Of a stretch of DNA of 33,273 bases, positions 1,508 through 29,257 are shown one piece after another. How positions within the stretch are numbered: position 1 is the first letter of the stretch; the number at the start of each line of letters is the position of its first letter. The stretch is taken from contig JAJEIP010000083.1 of the NCBI GenBank assembly GCA_022827885.1, positions 1-33,273 on the forward strand. Reading direction: 5' to 3'. The stretch is from Candidatus Poribacteria bacterium. GTDB taxonomy: Bacteria; Poribacteria; WGA-4E; WGA-3G. The position numbers and the translations under genes are program-made. The notes beneath the pieces were generated by a model. That model was not told the origin of the DNA, did not search any database, and saw only the letters and a program-made list of their open reading frames with translations.

Positions 1508-2308
1508 ATGGAACCACGCGTTTCATATTTGATTTGTGCAACACCGCGCTGTGGCGGGTATCTGCTGTTTGAGGCTTTGGAGAATACAGGACTTGCTGGA
1601 AATCCAGGAGAATATTTTTGGGAGGATGAACGTTGGGCTAAAGAATGGGGCGCCACCGATTACACCGACTTCCTCAATAAAGTAAAGCAGAAAAGCACAA
1701 CCCCAAATGGGGTCTTCGGAACAAAACTCATGTGGGGCTACTTTGAAAAGTTCATTAACAAAACACTTCAAATCCCGCAATTCAGAGACAGAAACCCGTC
1801 ACCACATACAGTGCTAAACGAATTGTTTCCGAACCTGCGTTATATCTGGATCATGCGCCGAGATAAAGTCCGTCAAGCCGTCTCTTTATGGAGAGGACTT
1901 CAGACATTGATCTGGTGGAAACGAACCGGTGACCCCACTCCCGAGTTGGAAAAAGAACCCGAGTACAACTTTGAGGCAATTGACTATTTCGTTCAAGAGA
2001 TTGTTTTTCACGAAGCAGCCTGGCAGTCTTACTTCACCGAATACAATATAACCCCATTTACAGTAATTTACGAGGATCTCGTGCCTTTCTACGAGGAAAC
2101 GGCTCTCAGAATTATGGATTGGCTGGAAATTTCTTATCCTGAGAATCTCGTGTTTGGTCCCAGACGCCTCCAAAAACAAGCCGACGGTATTTCTGAGGCG
2201 TGGGTTCAACAATATCGTGCCGATAAACAGAAACAAGAAAATGATAACCAAACATACTCACCTTTCTCTATCACTTCCTGGGACTTTAAAACACCTAATA
2301 TTTCTTGA
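1508..2308 (+). CDS. Stf0-family sulfotransferase
   Basis: 266 aa. The N-terminus SYLICATPRCGGYLLFEAL (residues 6-24) is the 5'-phosphosulfate-binding P-loop-like motif of the Stf0 family, and the following NPGEYFW matches the family's conserved G-x-P-x-E-Y-F block. A second motif at residues 117-129 (RRDKVRQAVSLWR) fits the 3'-phosphate-binding helix for PAPS. Known Stf0 enzymes move sulfate from PAPS to carbohydrate or lipid acceptors, for example trehalose 2-sulfotransferase in mycobacteria. The acceptor here is unknown. A clear ribosome-binding site (AAGGAG) precedes the ATG. The P-loop reads PRCGG where many members read PRSGS; this is a mild variant and not a sign of inactivation. Confidence 0.87.
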   Translation: MEPRVSYLICATPRCGGYLLFEALENTGLAGNPGEYFWEDERWAKEWGATDYTDFLNKVKQKSTTPNGVFGTKLMWGYFEKFINKTLQIPQFRDRNPSPHTVLNELFPNLRYIWIMRRDKVRQAVSLWRGLQTLIWWKRTGDPTPELEKEPEYNFEAIDYFVQEIVFHEAAWQSYFTEYNITPFTVIYEDLVPFYEETALRIMDWLEISYPENLVFGPRRLQKQADGISEAWVQQYRADKQKQENDNQTYSPFSITSWDFKTPNIS

Positions 2309-23416: not shown

Positions 23417-25657
23417 CTATACTGCTCCCGACATTTTTCTCGCAACCCAGAACACCCCGAGCAGCAGGATAAGAAGCCCTGCCCAAAGTGGGTGTGCCCA
23501 GATCCGTGTGCGATGCACCGTTGGTTCAGGTTCCGGTAAGGCTGCGAGATCATCTAACAGACTTCTCGCCTCAGAAACCGACACTAACTTGCCATCTGTA
23601 ATTTTGGCGATTTCGTCTAAAACCTCAAAACGCGCCAAACGCCCTTGTTGTTCCCGATTTAAACCTTGGACTGACAGATCGGTTTGGACCGAAGCCCCAG
23701 TTTCAATGCTACTCGCAACGAGTTGATAGTTTCCAGATTCTTTCGGGGTAAACGAACCTGTGAACAATCCTATTGCATCACCTTCACCCGGTTGTAAATG
23801 TATTGTTTGTGTTTTACCTGACGGTGAAATCGCTTGGACAACAACCGACCCCCTATCCACCGGTGTCCCCAACGGATCGTTCACGTTGGCATTTAACATC
23901 ACAACATCATCGACGTGCGGTCGGTCGGGTGAATAAAACAAACGCATTGATTCGCCTTGTGCCATCTGCCGGCGATACGCCATCCACCGAGCGACTTGGC
24001 TCCAGAAACGGTAGTGATACTTATCCTCAACCCCTTGCCGCCACCGCCATGCGCTATCTGTTCCGATAAACAACACTTTACCCGCACCGTAGGTTTTGCT
24101 CACGATGAGCGGCACGCGTCCAGAAGTCGTCGTGACCTCATTGTGCACGGCTAAAGTCTCTGTCCCCGCCTTGGCGCGTTTGACTGCAGCGTACCAGTAG
24201 AAACCTGGCAATGTGCGCCATACTTGGCGGTTGAGTTCTACGGTTTCTCCGAGGCGAGTTAATAAACTCCGTTGTCCCAATTGCGTGAGTGCGAAATACC
24301 CCTGCGTTGCCGCCCCAACACCATACGGGGTCGCAGCGTCCAAAACCACGGGATAGAGATCCGCAAGCGGACCGGACATCAACGATTCATGCATCCCGGT
24401 CCGTCCCGGCATAAAAACGAGTCCTGAAGCCTGTGCACTGACAAGCTGCCGTAGGTCCCGCGCCTGTTCAATTGTTAACTGTTTCTCTTTGACACCGACA
24501 TCACCAAGGAACACCACGTCGTAGCGGCTCAGTTCGTTGGTCGTAGGAAAGTTTTTGATGTAACTACGCCCTCCACCGACCTTCGGTAGTTTCGGATGAA
24601 AAAGTAGACAGGTCAATTCGACCCCGGGATCCCGCTCCAAGGCATTGCGCAGATAACGGTACTCCCACCGTGGGTAGGATTCGACGACCAAGACCTTCAA
24701 TTGTTCTTTGCGCACTGATATCGGCACAGCAATCTCATTGTTTTCTGGGATTAATTCCTGCGTATCTCTCGGAATACGCATTGTTAGCAGATAGTCACCA
24801 ACTGTTGGCGGTGTCCAGACCATGTTCTCTTGTGTTTGGCCCATCGCGGGGACACGGATAAGTTTGCTAACTGTTGATTTATTGTTAATATTGTCCCGCA
24901 GGTCTCCTTTATGGGTTTGCGTCAAGGTAACATTCACGTCTCTGTCCTGACCCAAAGTGCTGCGAACAACAAAGGAGATACGAAGTTGCTTATTGACAAC
25001 CGCAAAAGTCGGGGCATCCATACTTACTAACTCAAGGTCAGGTAACGGCACTTTACTACCCACCCCAACGGCAAAAACAGGAATTCCGCGCATCCGAAAC
25101 CGCGTCGCCGCCTCGACAGGTGAATTGCCGATATTCCAATCACCGTCCGACAATAGCACGACACCGCGAAGATTTGCATGCGTGTCTAAAACCTGCGACA
25201 GTCCGGCATTCAAATCTGTTGCTTCCTCCGCCGGATCTAACTGTGAAGAGAAGGGTTCAAATACTACATTGAGGTCACTGGCGTCCAAAGGTTTCCAAAC
25301 CTCCTCAGACATCAAGGGTTGAATCGTTTCCGCTCGACTTTTCGGATCCTTTTGCTCAAGGTCTTGTGGGTCTATTACGTCCCGTGTTTTCATGCTATTA
25401 GATGTGTCCCAAAGCACTGTGAGTGTAGAACGCCGATCGGGTGGTTGTGTTTGCAACCATTCGGGCTGATTCAGGGTTAGAACGACCATGCAAATCAACA
25501 CAAAGCGCAGGAATTCAAGCACTGCGGTCTTTTTGCTATAACCGCTGCGACACCATGCCAGCCAGCATAATATGCCAGCCACAATTATGACAGCCACACT
25601 CAACCCTAAGAAGGTGCCACTTGAGAAAAATTCAAGGTTCCCCTGTTGTTTCTGCAT
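23417..25657 (-). CDS. Membrane-anchored vWA / glutamine-amidotransferase-like protein
   Basis: 746 aa. Two hydrophobic spans at the N-terminus (about 15-36 and 46-64) and one at the C-terminus (LLILLLGVFWVARKM) anchor it with the bulk outside. A von Willebrand A domain carries the MIDAS motif DTSNS (84-88) and VVLLSDGDWNIGNSP. The middle part (KVLVVESYPRWEYRYLRNAL, YDVVFLGDVG) is a class-I GATase-like domain lacking an obvious catalytic Cys triad, usual for this family. Residues about 246-260 (TQTHKGDLRDNINN) are encoded by a repeat shared with the 844-aa protein. The start ATG has no clear ribosome-binding site and lies next to the TnpB element, which separates it from the BatA gene that would normally precede it. 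Confidence 0.83.
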   Translation of the reverse strand: MQKQQGNLEFFSSGTFLGLSVAVIIVAGILCWLAWCRSGYSKKTAVLEFLRFVLICMVVLTLNQPEWLQTQPPDRRSTLTVLWDTSNSMKTRDVIDPQDLEQKDPKSRAETIQPLMSEEVWKPLDASDLNVVFEPFSSQLDPAEEATDLNAGLSQVLDTHANLRGVVLLSDGDWNIGNSPVEAATRFRMRGIPVFAVGVGSKVPLPDLELVSMDAPTFAVVNKQLRISFVVRSTLGQDRDVNVTLTQTHKGDLRDNINNKSTVSKLIRVPAMGQTQENMVWTPPTVGDYLLTMRIPRDTQELIPENNEIAVPISVRKEQLKVLVVESYPRWEYRYLRNALERDPGVELTCLLFHPKLPKVGGGRSYIKNFPTTNELSRYDVVFLGDVGVKEKQLTIEQARDLRQLVSAQASGLVFMPGRTGMHESLMSGPLADLYPVVLDAATPYGVGAATQGYFALTQLGQRSLLTRLGETVELNRQVWRTLPGFYWYAAVKRAKAGTETLAVHNEVTTTSGRVPLIVSKTYGAGKVLFIGTDSAWRWRQGVEDKYHYRFWSQVARWMAYRRQMAQGESMRLFYSPDRPHVDDVVMLNANVNDPLGTPVDRGSVVVQAISPSGKTQTIHLQPGEGDAIGLFTGSFTPKESGNYQLVASSIETGASVQTDLSVQGLNREQQGRLARFEVLDEIAKITDGKLVSVSEARSLLDDLAALPEPEPTVHRTRIWAHPLWAGLLILLLGVFWVARKMSGAV
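24881..24922 (-). repeat. 42-bp intragenic repeat, copy B (translated)
   Basis: It matches 34 of 42 bases of 13891-13932, same strand and same frame. It is read as TQTHKGDLRDNINN within the extracellular part of the vWA/GATase protein. CTAACTG lies just outside the copy on one side, as TTAACTG does near copy A, which hints at a longer shared element. Confidence 0.6.
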
Positions 25658-25775
25658 TTTTTAATTTTTAATGATTCGCAAGGCGTTAAAAGGTAAACTT
25701 AACACTCCCTCGTCAAATCCCCATGCTTTAGCTTGTGGGATGTAGACGGCGTAAGGGTTTATTGAAAAATTGAAC

Positions 25776-25804
25776 TTGACATTCACCGAAAAATGTAGTA
25801 TAAT
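25776..25804 (+). promoter_or_regulatory. Consensus promoter of tnpB
   Basis: TTGACA (25776-25781), 17 nt, TATAAT (25799-25804): a perfect sigma-70 consensus inside the element's left end. Transcription should begin at about 25811, just where the inverted-repeat leader starts. Confidence 0.75.
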
Positions 25805-25809
25805 GAGAA

Positions 25810-25896
25810 TATCAGGTTGGCAGACAAGTCAAGCGTAATCGCAAGGTTACGTGTCTGTCTCCCACTTGACTGCGGATAAATGCCTGATACCTGATA
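25810..25896 (+). promoter_or_regulatory. Nested inverted-repeat leader of tnpB
   Basis: Three nested pairings are exact: TATCAGGT (25810-25817) with ACCTGATA (25889-25896); AGTCAAG (25827-25833) with CTTGACT (25865-25871); CGTAA (25834-25838) with TTACG (25847-25851). The outer helix begins at the predicted transcript start and ends 5 nt before the tnpB ATG at 25902, so folding would hide the ribosome-binding region. Leader hairpins that limit translation are known for IS200 tnpA; a role here is inferred. Confidence 0.55.
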
Positions 25897-25901
25897 CTCC
25901 C

Positions 25902-27014
25902 ATGAGAAAAGCCTACAAATACAAACTCCAAAATCAATCGAATGTCATCAAGCTCGGCAACATGCTTGACGATATGTGGGGTATCCACGTTCATATTATG
26001 CTTTTATCGCGTCGGTATTATCGCATATTTGGGAAGAACCTGTCTGCGTCTCGTATAAACAAGCATATTACAAAACTCAAAAAGCGGACAAAACCGCATT
26101 GGAAAGCCCTACCGAGTCAAGTTGTGCAAGACGTTGTGCTGCGTTATGGTAAATCCCAAGACACTTTTTTTGACAATATCAAAGACCGAAAAGCCGGCAA
26201 AACAACCCATAAAGTCGGTAGACCGAAAATCAAACCGCGTCAGAAATATAACTCTATGACGTTTACACAAGTCGGATACGAACTTGAAGGCAATCGTATC
26301 AAAATCAATTGCATAGATACATGGTTCTCTTTCCATCAACACCGTGATTTCACAGGTATCATCAAGTCAATCACACTCAAACGCGATAAGTGCGGGGACT
26401 ATTGGATATGCTTTTCATGCGAGAATGTTGACGCTTCCGACCCCAAAGCCAAGACGGGTAAGAGCGCAGGATTTGATTACGGAAACAAAACATTCCTAAC
26501 GAGCGACGAAGGCGATAAGCTAGAATCTCCGCAGTTTTTCAAACAATCACTCAACACATTGCGATCTCTCAGCAAAGCATTAAGCCGTAAGGTCAAAGGT
26601 TCTGGCAATTGGTATCGTGCGTGTCGTGCTTTGGCAAGACACCACAGAAAAGTTGCCCGACAAAGAGAAGATTGGCACTGGAAACTTGCCACCGACCTTT
26701 GCACAGCGTTTGATATACTCTGTTTTGAAACGCTGAACCTTGAGGGTATGAAACGCCTCTGGGGTCGCAAAGTCTCTGACCATGCCTTCTATCAGTTTCT
26801 ACAAATATTGGAACAGAAATGCGCAAAACACGGCAAAACCTTCGTCAAAATCTCTCAATGGACAGCAACGACGAAACCTTGCAGTGATTGTGGTTATCAT
26901 AACAAAGACCTCTCTCTTGCAGATAGACAGTGGACATGCCCCGACTGTGGTTCACACCACGACAGAGACGTAAACGCTGCTATCAATATCAAACGGGCAG
27001 GCTTGGCTGCCTAA
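25902..27014 (+). CDS. tnpB: TnpB, RNA-guided nuclease of an IS605-type element
   Basis: 370 aa from the ATG at 25902 (MRKAYKYKLQNQ), the usual TnpB N-terminus. An in-frame ATG 17 codons upstream (25851) lies within the leader and is less likely. The RuvC-like site is complete: D192 in AGFDYGNKTF, E276 in LCFETLNLEG and D356 in HDRDVNAAIN. The zinc ribbon has CSDCG (C327, C330) and CPDCG (C346, C349). The length is close to known active TnpB proteins, with no frameshift or stop. TnpB proteins use an RNA from the element's right end to cut DNA matching the adjacent guide, which favours retention of the element. The gene runs against the surrounding operon. Confidence 0.93.
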   Translation: MRKAYKYKLQNQSNVIKLGNMLDDMWGIHVHIMLLSRRYYRIFGKNLSASRINKHITKLKKRTKPHWKALPSQVVQDVVLRYGKSQDTFFDNIKDRKAGKTTHKVGRPKIKPRQKYNSMTFTQVGYELEGNRIKINCIDTWFSFHQHRDFTGIIKSITLKRDKCGDYWICFSCENVDASDPKAKTGKSAGFDYGNKTFLTSDEGDKLESPQFFKQSLNTLRSLSKALSRKVKGSGNWYRACRALARHHRKVARQREDWHWKLATDLCTAFDILCFETLNLEGMKRLWGRKVSDHAFYQFLQILEQKCAKHGKTFVKISQWTATTKPCSDCGYHNKDLSLADRQWTCPDCGSHHDRDVNAAINIKRAGLAA

Positions 27015-27104
27015 AGTGGAGCGACAGTCAGACGGTGGACTCTCTGAGAAAACCGCAGTCGCTATGAAGCACAAGCCCCTACCTTTAGGTTGTGGGTACC
27101 ATTG
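26930..27104 (+). ncRNA. Probable omega-RNA (reRNA) region at the TnpB right end
   Basis: In TnpB elements the guide RNA scaffold comes from the 3' end of tnpB plus the right end, and the guide is the flanking DNA. Here the right end has AAACCGCAGTCGCTATGAAG and then the terminal hairpin (27076-27096), the usual arrangement. The guide would start at about 27097-27105 and read into the BatA gene's 3' end. The limits are not visible from sequence alone. Confidence 0.4.
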
Positions 27105-29142
27105 ACAAAGTCGTTTTGGTTCTCTTACCCGGTAAACTCAGTGCCGCCTCTGCCAGAAGTGCCACTATCATTGCGATGAGAAAAATACGCCACAGTTCAC
27201 TCGCTAATGCAGATGTGTCACTTACATCAACATCAATCCGTCGATACGACATCCCATCAAAGAGTGCGTCCACCGTCTCGACTGGAACCGCTGTAGCACT
27301 GTCTTCAATTTGGCTACGATTTACAGCCGTCCAGTACGCGCCGTCTCGGTACACACCCGCATGTAACCCGCGTTGTGACAGGAGTGGCGAGTTGTCCGTA
27401 GGTGCGACTAACTCCCAAGCCGAAGAATCTGCCAACACATCAGGACCTGCGTCGCGTTGAGAGGCAACAGACAAGGCTTGGCAACCCCAGCCTAACGCCC
27501 GCTGTAAAATCACGTAAAAGATGACCCCTTCGCGTTCGAGGGAGGAAAATTGTGCCGTGGGTAGCGTGCTACAAAAGTATACCGCACCGCGATCGGTAGC
27601 GACACGACTAAGTAGAGGCGCATCGTCATTAAATCTCGCTAAGGGTGTCCCAGGACTTTCAAAAGAACGGTATCGATACGTGCGTAATTCGTTCAGTGGC
27701 AATGCGTCCCCACTCTCTACATGAGCCAGCAGATCTGTATCGCCACGCCACCATGAAGTGCTGAAAATCTGTTGACTTCCGGGAGTTTGCCAGGCTCCCC
27801 AATGCGATCCAAATAGCCGTTCATTTTCACTTTGATTTCCCTTCCCAGAAACCTGTGATGACCCGGGTGGGAAGAACATAACCACGCGCCCTGTATCAAC
27901 GAATTGCGCAATCTGTTCTGCAACTGGCCCGCGCGGTAGAGCCGCTTGCCAGATCAACAATCCTGTATTTTCCCATTCTCCCGCAATCCTGTTAAGGCTT
28001 GCGCCCTCTGCAGCACTATCTACGGAGATTACATCAATCTGATGTTGAAGTCGAGGGTCTATCGGAATAGCAAGTGCCCGTCGAAACGCTTCACCGTTCT
28101 TTACATCATCACTCACAACAATGGCTCTCCGCACCGGCGATTCCGAAAACACAAAGAAGAACCGATTATCCAAGGGATTCGCGTCGCCCGGCAGCCCAAC
28201 CGAACCCCAACCTGAACGGAGTTTGGTATCAATTGGGATACGATGTCCTTTCAGAGAGGCGCCCTGTTGGTCAAGCTCCACCTCAACGACAGACCTAACG
28301 TTGTTGACTTCAAACTCAATCGGAACCTCTTGACGTCTTGTGCCACGATTCCCCTTCGACCGAACTATCACATCAAGGACAAGCTCCGCATCGTTCCCGC
28401 GTTCCCACCGTTGGACGTTTTCTACCCTTATCGACAAATTGCTGGAAGGTAAATCTGCGTCTGCCATCAAGAAATGATGGACACCCTCTAATTGCGCAAA
28501 TTCCTCGCGTATCGCTTGCCAGCGTCCGCTTTCAACATCCCAATCATTCTCGTTCAAGTCAGAGCAGATCCACACGTCAACGCGTCCCGACTCATTCGCG
28601 TTGAGATACGCTAAGGTGGACGCAAGCATCCCCGGAATATCCGCACTGGTGGCACTCGGTCCGGCGATGGGTATATCCAATAGCGCCTTCGGTGAATCGA
28701 CCTCCTGTAGTTGACCGCTTGCACTGTCAATCAGCATCAAGTGTGTCCCGTAATCTCCCTGTTCCAGCAATTCCGCGAGTTTTTTCAGTGCCGCAGATCG
28801 CTTTGACTGCCCCGTTTGTAAGTCTTGCATTTCCATGCTTACAGAACGGTCCAGGAGTATCAAGGTGGCATCCGGTTTACTCATTCCGATGCTACCCAAC
28901 CATCCACCGGATAAGGGACGACTGACGACGAAAATTAGAGCCGCGACTGCAAGCACACGCATCAATAGAATAAGGAAATGCCGAAGACGCGCCATACCTT
29001 TGCGCATCCGTTTCGCACGCATAAGGAACATCATGGCTGCCCAAGGGATCGTGCGGTGCCGATACTGATTGATGAGGTGGATAAGGATCGGCAACGCGAT
29101 TAAAGGGAGGGCGATTAATGCGAACGGTTGCAGAAAACCCAT
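27085..29142 (-). CDS. BatA-like aerotolerance/vWA membrane protein
   Basis: 685 aa from the ATG at 29142, where the sequence starts MGFLQPFALIALPLIALPIL, the classic BatA N-terminal membrane domain, with IHLINQYRHRTIPWAAMMFL after it. An upstream GTG (29196) would add 18 atypical residues. A second span follows at about 55-75. The vWA-like domain has the MIDAS motif DRSVS (98-102). A C-terminal span (IFLIAMIVALLAEAALSL) anchors the end. It is probably folded or assembled by the MoxR ATPase of the same operon. The last codons, including the TAA at 27087-27085, lie inside the right end of the TnpB element, so the original C-terminus has been replaced, at least for the final few residues. Confidence 0.87.
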   Translation of the reverse strand: MGFLQPFALIALPLIALPILIHLINQYRHRTIPWAAMMFLMRAKRMRKGMARLRHFLILLMRVLAVAALIFVVSRPLSGGWLGSIGMSKPDATLILLDRSVSMEMQDLQTGQSKRSAALKKLAELLEQGDYGTHLMLIDSASGQLQEVDSPKALLDIPIAGPSATSADIPGMLASTLAYLNANESGRVDVWICSDLNENDWDVESGRWQAIREEFAQLEGVHHFLMADADLPSSNLSIRVENVQRWERGNDAELVLDVIVRSKGNRGTRRQEVPIEFEVNNVRSVVEVELDQQGASLKGHRIPIDTKLRSGWGSVGLPGDANPLDNRFFFVFSESPVRRAIVVSDDVKNGEAFRRALAIPIDPRLQHQIDVISVDSAAEGASLNRIAGEWENTGLLIWQAALPRGPVAEQIAQFVDTGRVVMFFPPGSSQVSGKGNQSENERLFGSHWGAWQTPGSQQIFSTSWWRGDTDLLAHVESGDALPLNELRTYRYRSFESPGTPLARFNDDAPLLSRVATDRGAVYFCSTLPTAQFSSLEREGVIFYVILQRALGWGCQALSVASQRDAGPDVLADSSAWELVAPTDNSPLLSQRGLHAGVYRDGAYWTAVNRSQIEDSATAVPVETVDALFDGMSYRRIDVDVSDTSALASELWRIFLIAMIVALLAEAALSLPGKRTKTTLSMVPTT

Positions 29143-29257
29143 CTTTTTAATTATTGCTCCTGGGCTAAAGAAACGCCCAATCAAAAACCCTTCCACTTCG
29201 TTTCAGGCAGGTTTTCGGTTAATTCGCGATTGGGTTTGAAGATTTGTAGCGTTTTTC

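Follow-up and report, generated by a model that had tools for sequence, protein, structure and literature searches.

The window analysed here is the whole 33,273-nt stretch of a contig from Candidatus Poribacteria, which are bacteria of sponges. On its plus strand, positions 25704-27106 held a TnpB-only IS200/IS605-type (IS1341-like) element, which contained TnpB domains and subterminal hairpins and no tnpA; its ends were placed where alignments of paralogs stopped while the flanks went on in relatives. The left-end hairpin (CCCCATGCTTTAGCTTGTGGG, 25719-25739) recurred at the left end of copies, and the right-end hairpin (CCCCTACCTTTAGGTTGTGGG, 27076-27096) likewise recurred in copies. The tnpB gene (25902-27014) encodes 370 aa with matches to Pfam OrfB_IS605 and Cas12f1-like_TNB. 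Its ATG at 25902 was common to relatives, as was the distance from the upstream leader to this ATG. The element sits between two minus-strand genes (23417-25657 and 27085-29196) and adjoins DUF58/BatA-type genes; with flanking genes so oriented, an antisense operon transcript across the element is plausible. The left flank reads TTAAC (25699-25703), a sequence found again beside several copies, and TTGAC stands at the right end (27102-27106); these are likely the insertion target and the target-adjacent motif of the nuclease.

The perfect promoter reported in a preliminary description of this DNA was present on the plus strand (TTGACA 25776-25781, a 17-nt spacer, TATAAT 25799-25804), matching the consensus at 12 of 12 positions, and was the sole such site in 5 kb. 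The predicted +1 lies near 25811, at the 5' strand of helix P1 (UAUCAGGU, 25810-25817), termed here the toggle strand; the leader thus begins at the expected +1, as had been proposed, with its outer 5' strand at the predicted 5' end of the transcript. Of 93 leader-bearing copies, 86 had a -10 element matching at 5 or more of 6 positions; the toggle strand mostly began 5-7 nt downstream of this element.

The leader is predicted to form a five-helix pseudoknot. Downstream of the toggle strand, the 5' strand of P2 (GGCAGACA, 25819-25826) pairs with TGTCTGTC (25852-25859), enclosing P3, a 7-bp hairpin with a GCAA loop (25834-25851) in which CGTAATC (25834-25840) pairs with GGTTACG (25845-25851). 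The loop of the P5 hairpin (UCC/GGA, 25860-25876) holds CTTGACT (25865-25871), the partner of AGTCAAG (25827-25833). The resulting helix P4 joins the strand between P2 and P3 to the P5 loop and crosses P2. The outer strand TATCAGG (25810-25816) pairs with CCTGATA at 25890-25896 and equally with a copy at 25883-25889; the proximal complement (25883-25889) closes the domain, and the distal complement (25890-25896) lies 5 nt upstream of the ATG. The three pairings described previously were all found, the last stopping 5 nt short of the ATG at 25902, and as helices they are real. Their nesting did not stand, since the middle helix is P4 and crosses P2; P2 had not been recognised, nor had the presence of the outer 3' strand in two tandem copies. 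A plain nested hairpin was rejected as the fold, having -19.0 kcal/mol versus -24.7 kcal/mol for the P2-containing fold and omitting P2, which covaries.

The leader from promoter to ATG folded only modestly better than shuffled sequences (z = -2.0), so that the case has to be carried by comparison. A DNA search of the window's genome gave 33 matches, several of which spanned the leader and not tnpB; those leaders precede TnpBs only 26-30% identical to that of the window. An alignment of 21 same-genome paralogous leaders yielded P1, P2, P3, P5 and the pseudoknot P4, with 94% of cells paired and 100 double-change cells, compared to 29 for shuffled alignments and at most 14 for slid partners. A covariance model holding the nested helices only (R1) then gathered 104 leaders from the window's genome and relatives; neither P4 nor the distal copy had been used to fit this alignment. 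The nested structure overall was paired in 96.9% of cells. P4 was paired in 93.8% (222 double-change cells versus 73 shuffled), the distal copy in 92.0% (95 versus 26), and, with the register unchanged, the proximal copy in 94.8% (111 versus 27). Since related sequences may exceed shuffles without any structure, the slid controls weigh more, and these gave at most 20 double-change cells for both P1 copies and at most 31 for P4. Covariation was seen in P2, P3 and P5 as well. The toggle strand covaried with both downstream copies: its sequence fell into classes such as ATCAAG, ATCACG, ATCAGG, ATCGTG, ATCTCG, ACCAG, ATCATA and others, and both copies generally matched. G-U pairs were frequent in the leader helices. 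The check that had been suggested earlier, covariation of the helices among relatives, was run and left the claim unrefuted. Together, these comparisons supported all five helices with their pseudoknot and each of the two alternative pairings of the toggle strand, as well as the link to the promoter and the constant placement in front of tnpB.

Because the proximal and distal helices use the same toggle-strand bases, they are mutually exclusive. By nearest-neighbour energies, which leave out the pseudoknot and tertiary contacts, each state of the window leader was at -24.7 kcal/mol. Across 71 leaders of genus g1, median duplex energies were -8.8 kcal/mol (proximal) and -9.0 kcal/mol (distal), the two duplexes lay no more than 2 kcal/mol apart in 64 leaders, and the distal copy ended a median of 5 nt from the ATG. 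A Shine-Dalgarno (SD)-like site was found in none of 78 g1 leader-tnpBs and in 18 of 21 host genes of the window. The earlier notion of a leader simply hiding the start was accordingly not upheld: the outer strand can take either of two equivalent partners, only one of the balanced states covers the start region, and the window's tnpB has no SD-like site to hide. In genome G082, the distal copy of three leaders (L264-L266) was itself SD-like (GAGAAGG; GAGAAGA in L265). Three other leaders of this genome (L263, L268 and L273) had the domain with no evident distal copy, and L263 and L268 carried an SD-like stretch in its place. No leader-specific terminator was found; the distal copy leads directly into the start codon.

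We further investigated how widely the leader occurs. Within the window's genus, R1 had matches in each of the 38 genomes searched, with up to ~50 copies per genome; across Poribacteria, it matched 49 of 85 genomes. A broader model (R2) matched 56 of the 85 and gave no match in 29; several leaderless Poribacteria genomes have no TnpB domain whatever. Among the matches listed for four genomes, a leader preceded 89 of 105 tnpB-domain matches by no more than 3 kb in the same orientation, which gives an estimate of the share; among those listed for G018, three leaderless tnpBs had a same-strand Y1 transposase ~1 kb upstream. The same plan was followed by leaders of unrelated sequence before tnpB genes in genera g5 and g18 and in part of g20: a 5' strand after the -10 element, a pseudoknotted domain and two complements, the second directly before the ATG. 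With filters off, g5 matched R1 down to E 3e-9. Two scans were designed once the architecture was known, and their counts are thus descriptive, not blind, with copies inside one genus being kin and hence not independent events. The sequence-blind scan for the double complement scored 71/78 in g1, 11/13 in g5, 6/6 in g18, 2/3 in g19 and 3/10 in g20 (the last with a relaxed gap; 0/10 with a wider minimum gap), where shuffles led us to expect 2.1, 0.3, 0.13, 0.05 and 0.5 respectively. The scan for P2 crossed by P4 scored 65/78, 8/13, 5/6, 3/3 and 1/10 in the same order, with shuffle expectations of 1.6, 0.1, 0.0, 0.1 and 0.15. The double complement was absent at the annotated start codon of all 12 tnpBs taken from plasmids of other phyla, many of which carry an SD-like site, and from all four tnpBs in G049, another Poribacteria genus; on these counts, the idea of a general feature of tnpB genes was rejected.

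Sequence comparison indicated that the leader tracks host genus and not TnpB family. Within g1, leader identity was 0.75-0.77 whether the TnpBs averaged 32%, 47% or 78% identity. Between g1 and g20, TnpBs were up to 75% identical, that of the window included, yet leader identity was at about the shuffled level. A leader that follows the host and not the protein speaks against recognition specific to TnpB, and suggests a partner on the host side or promoter-leader modules exchanged within a host.

These results suggested that the leader is probably, though by no means certainly, a conserved cis-acting RNA of Poribacteria tnpB-only elements that works as a two-state translational toggle. The transcript would start at the toggle strand. 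In one state, the toggle strand and the proximal complement would close the pseudoknotted domain (P2-P5); the start codon and the distal complement would stay single-stranded, and translation would presumably be on. In the other, the toggle strand and the distal complement would mask the region where ribosomes bind, up to about 5 nt from the ATG, and translation would presumably be off. The balance may be set by how the pseudoknot domain folds, whether unaided, in the course of time or with help from a host factor. TnpB derives its guide RNA from its own mRNA (PMC10278001), so a leader limiting translation and not the transcript would separate the two outputs; its purpose may be to keep nuclease output low while the same transcript provides guide RNA. 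The covariation, the balance of the two states, the recurrence of the plan in other genera, the lack of SD-like sites in g1, the SD-like distal copy in L264-L266, the leaderless tnpBs near a Y1 transposase in G018 and the lack of a leader-specific terminator favour the toggle. The G082 leaders that show no evident distal copy count against it, and the two copies of the complement could have other roles. Few bases are both conserved and unpaired, and an insert of 26 nt is tolerated in the P3 loop, so that no ligand pocket is evident. Tentatively, and with greater doubt, the leader may represent a new bistable class of regulatory RNA that is matched to the lineage of its host. Such an RNA would sense a metabolite or a factor of the host, switch an RNA-guided nuclease on or off, and direct the transcript to guide RNA or protein. 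TnpB probably gave rise to Cas12, and the leader bears on how a cell tolerates dozens of RNA-guided nuclease copies: it is conserved in up to ~50 elements per genome, where it could determine how much nuclease is made relative to guide RNA. One strand with two equivalent partners makes an unusually clear and testable switch design.

Several other readings were weighed against the toggle. The pseudoknot might position the 30S subunit for constitutive, SD-independent loading, promoting translation rather than gating it; the absence of an SD-like site in 78 leader-tnpBs and the fixed distance to the ATG fit this idea, but two equivalent complements of the 5' strand and the SD-like distal copies in some leaders would be left unexplained, and we regard it as rather unlikely. 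The toggle strand's place at the predicted 5' end, together with the production of guide RNA from the tnpB mRNA (PMC10278001), would also suit an mRNA stabiliser, in which a paired extreme 5' end protects the transcript from decay and favours guide-RNA supply. A single complement would suffice for that, however, and the position of the distal copy at the start codon would have no explanation, which makes a stabiliser unlikely.

Binding of TnpB to the leader, with repression of its own translation, might be expected of an RNA-binding protein whose mRNA contains the leader. It is hard to reconcile with leaders ~75% identical across TnpBs only 32% identical, and with unrelated leaders before TnpBs 75% identical in other hosts; recognition by shape alone might still work, but autoregulation of this kind appears quite improbable. 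The least credible reading is a DNA-level transposition signal made of single-strand hairpins and not an RNA at all. The ends of IS200/IS605 elements do use hairpins in single-stranded DNA, but this element has end hairpins of its own, separate from the leader, and neither the frequent G-U pairs nor the tie to promoter and start codon would be expected of such a signal. The toggle thus remained the preferred reading.

In comparison with known systems, the leader looks like an undescribed element by which tnpB mRNAs of Poribacteria switch production of their nuclease. When the window leader and six divergent leader loci were searched with Rfam 15 covariance models, none matched at E<=1, so no known RNA family was recognised. 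A self-cleaving ribozyme was likewise set aside, there being no Rfam match and nothing obvious to cleave, as the predicted 5' end is already at the outer strand. The IS200 tnpA leader, in the 2015 work of Ellis, Trussler and Haniford, is reportedly a structured 5' UTR that suppresses translation. It resembles the leader described here as a structured 5' UTR of an IS200/IS605-family gene, and the distal state here would reach 5 nt from the ATG, over a ribosome-binding region that in g1 has no SD-like site. However, its gene is the transposase tnpA and not tnpB, repression by the present leader is proposed, and we know of no tandem alternative partners or pseudoknot in the IS200 leader. By analogy, the toggle is like the expression platform of a riboswitch. 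It has a folded conserved domain with covariation, linked to an expression signal by mutually exclusive helices of which both partners covary, and, as in translational riboswitches, one strand is common to the domain-closing helix and the start-covering helix. It differs in that the gene is a transposon nuclease, no ligand is known, the shared strand is the transcript 5' end, and few unpaired bases are conserved.

The IS10 transposase mRNA, controlled by Hfq and an antisense RNA (PMC5006887), is likewise a mobile-element message restrained at its translation start, as is proposed here, but that control is trans-acting (PMC5006887) whereas the present leader is a conserved cis structure. For a Halobacterium TnpB, the parts of the report consulted propose repression by SmAP1 or antisense RNA, suggesting translational repression at the 5' end of the tnpB transcript; the system is archaeal, and those parts describe no conserved leader structure (PMC10134880). 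The omegaRNA and RAGATH-18-derived RNA are also structured RNAs of TnpB elements, but they lie on the 3' side and carry the guide (PMC10278001, PMC11061315). The present leader is 5' of the start codon, ending 5 nt before the ATG and not at the tnpB 3' end into the flank. In the literature searched, which left most subscription papers outside its scope, we found no description of a conserved 5' tnpB leader and no paper covering both Poribacteria and TnpB, in agreement with the preliminary statement that no described equivalent was known for a TnpB-only element.

Some leaders departed from the common pattern. A GC-rich hairpin insert of ~26 nt (CCCCCTTCCCAGTAACGGGTGGGGACCCC) was present in the P3 loop of L149, L170, L183, L185, L189 and L056, from at least three genomes; it is perhaps a small hairpin that is mobile or repeated. 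Leaders without an intact tnpB were mostly degenerate, frameshifted or internally deleted in appearance, and a host riboswitch captured by transposons was rejected as the origin. In G044, L243-L253 were followed by the first tnpB codons only or by other genes, and some resembled internally deleted elements. L051, L056 and L062 (2978-3078) were leaders without tnpB that had a common downstream sequence (TTTTGAAAGACAA...GCGAACAG). L152 (G022, 2001-2102, minus strand) is a possible exception to this degeneration: a leader with both complements stood exactly before the ATG of a 121-aa non-tnpB protein with a signal-like start (MKHVLFFSILF...). Here a host gene may have reused the switch, or the insertion may be decaying.
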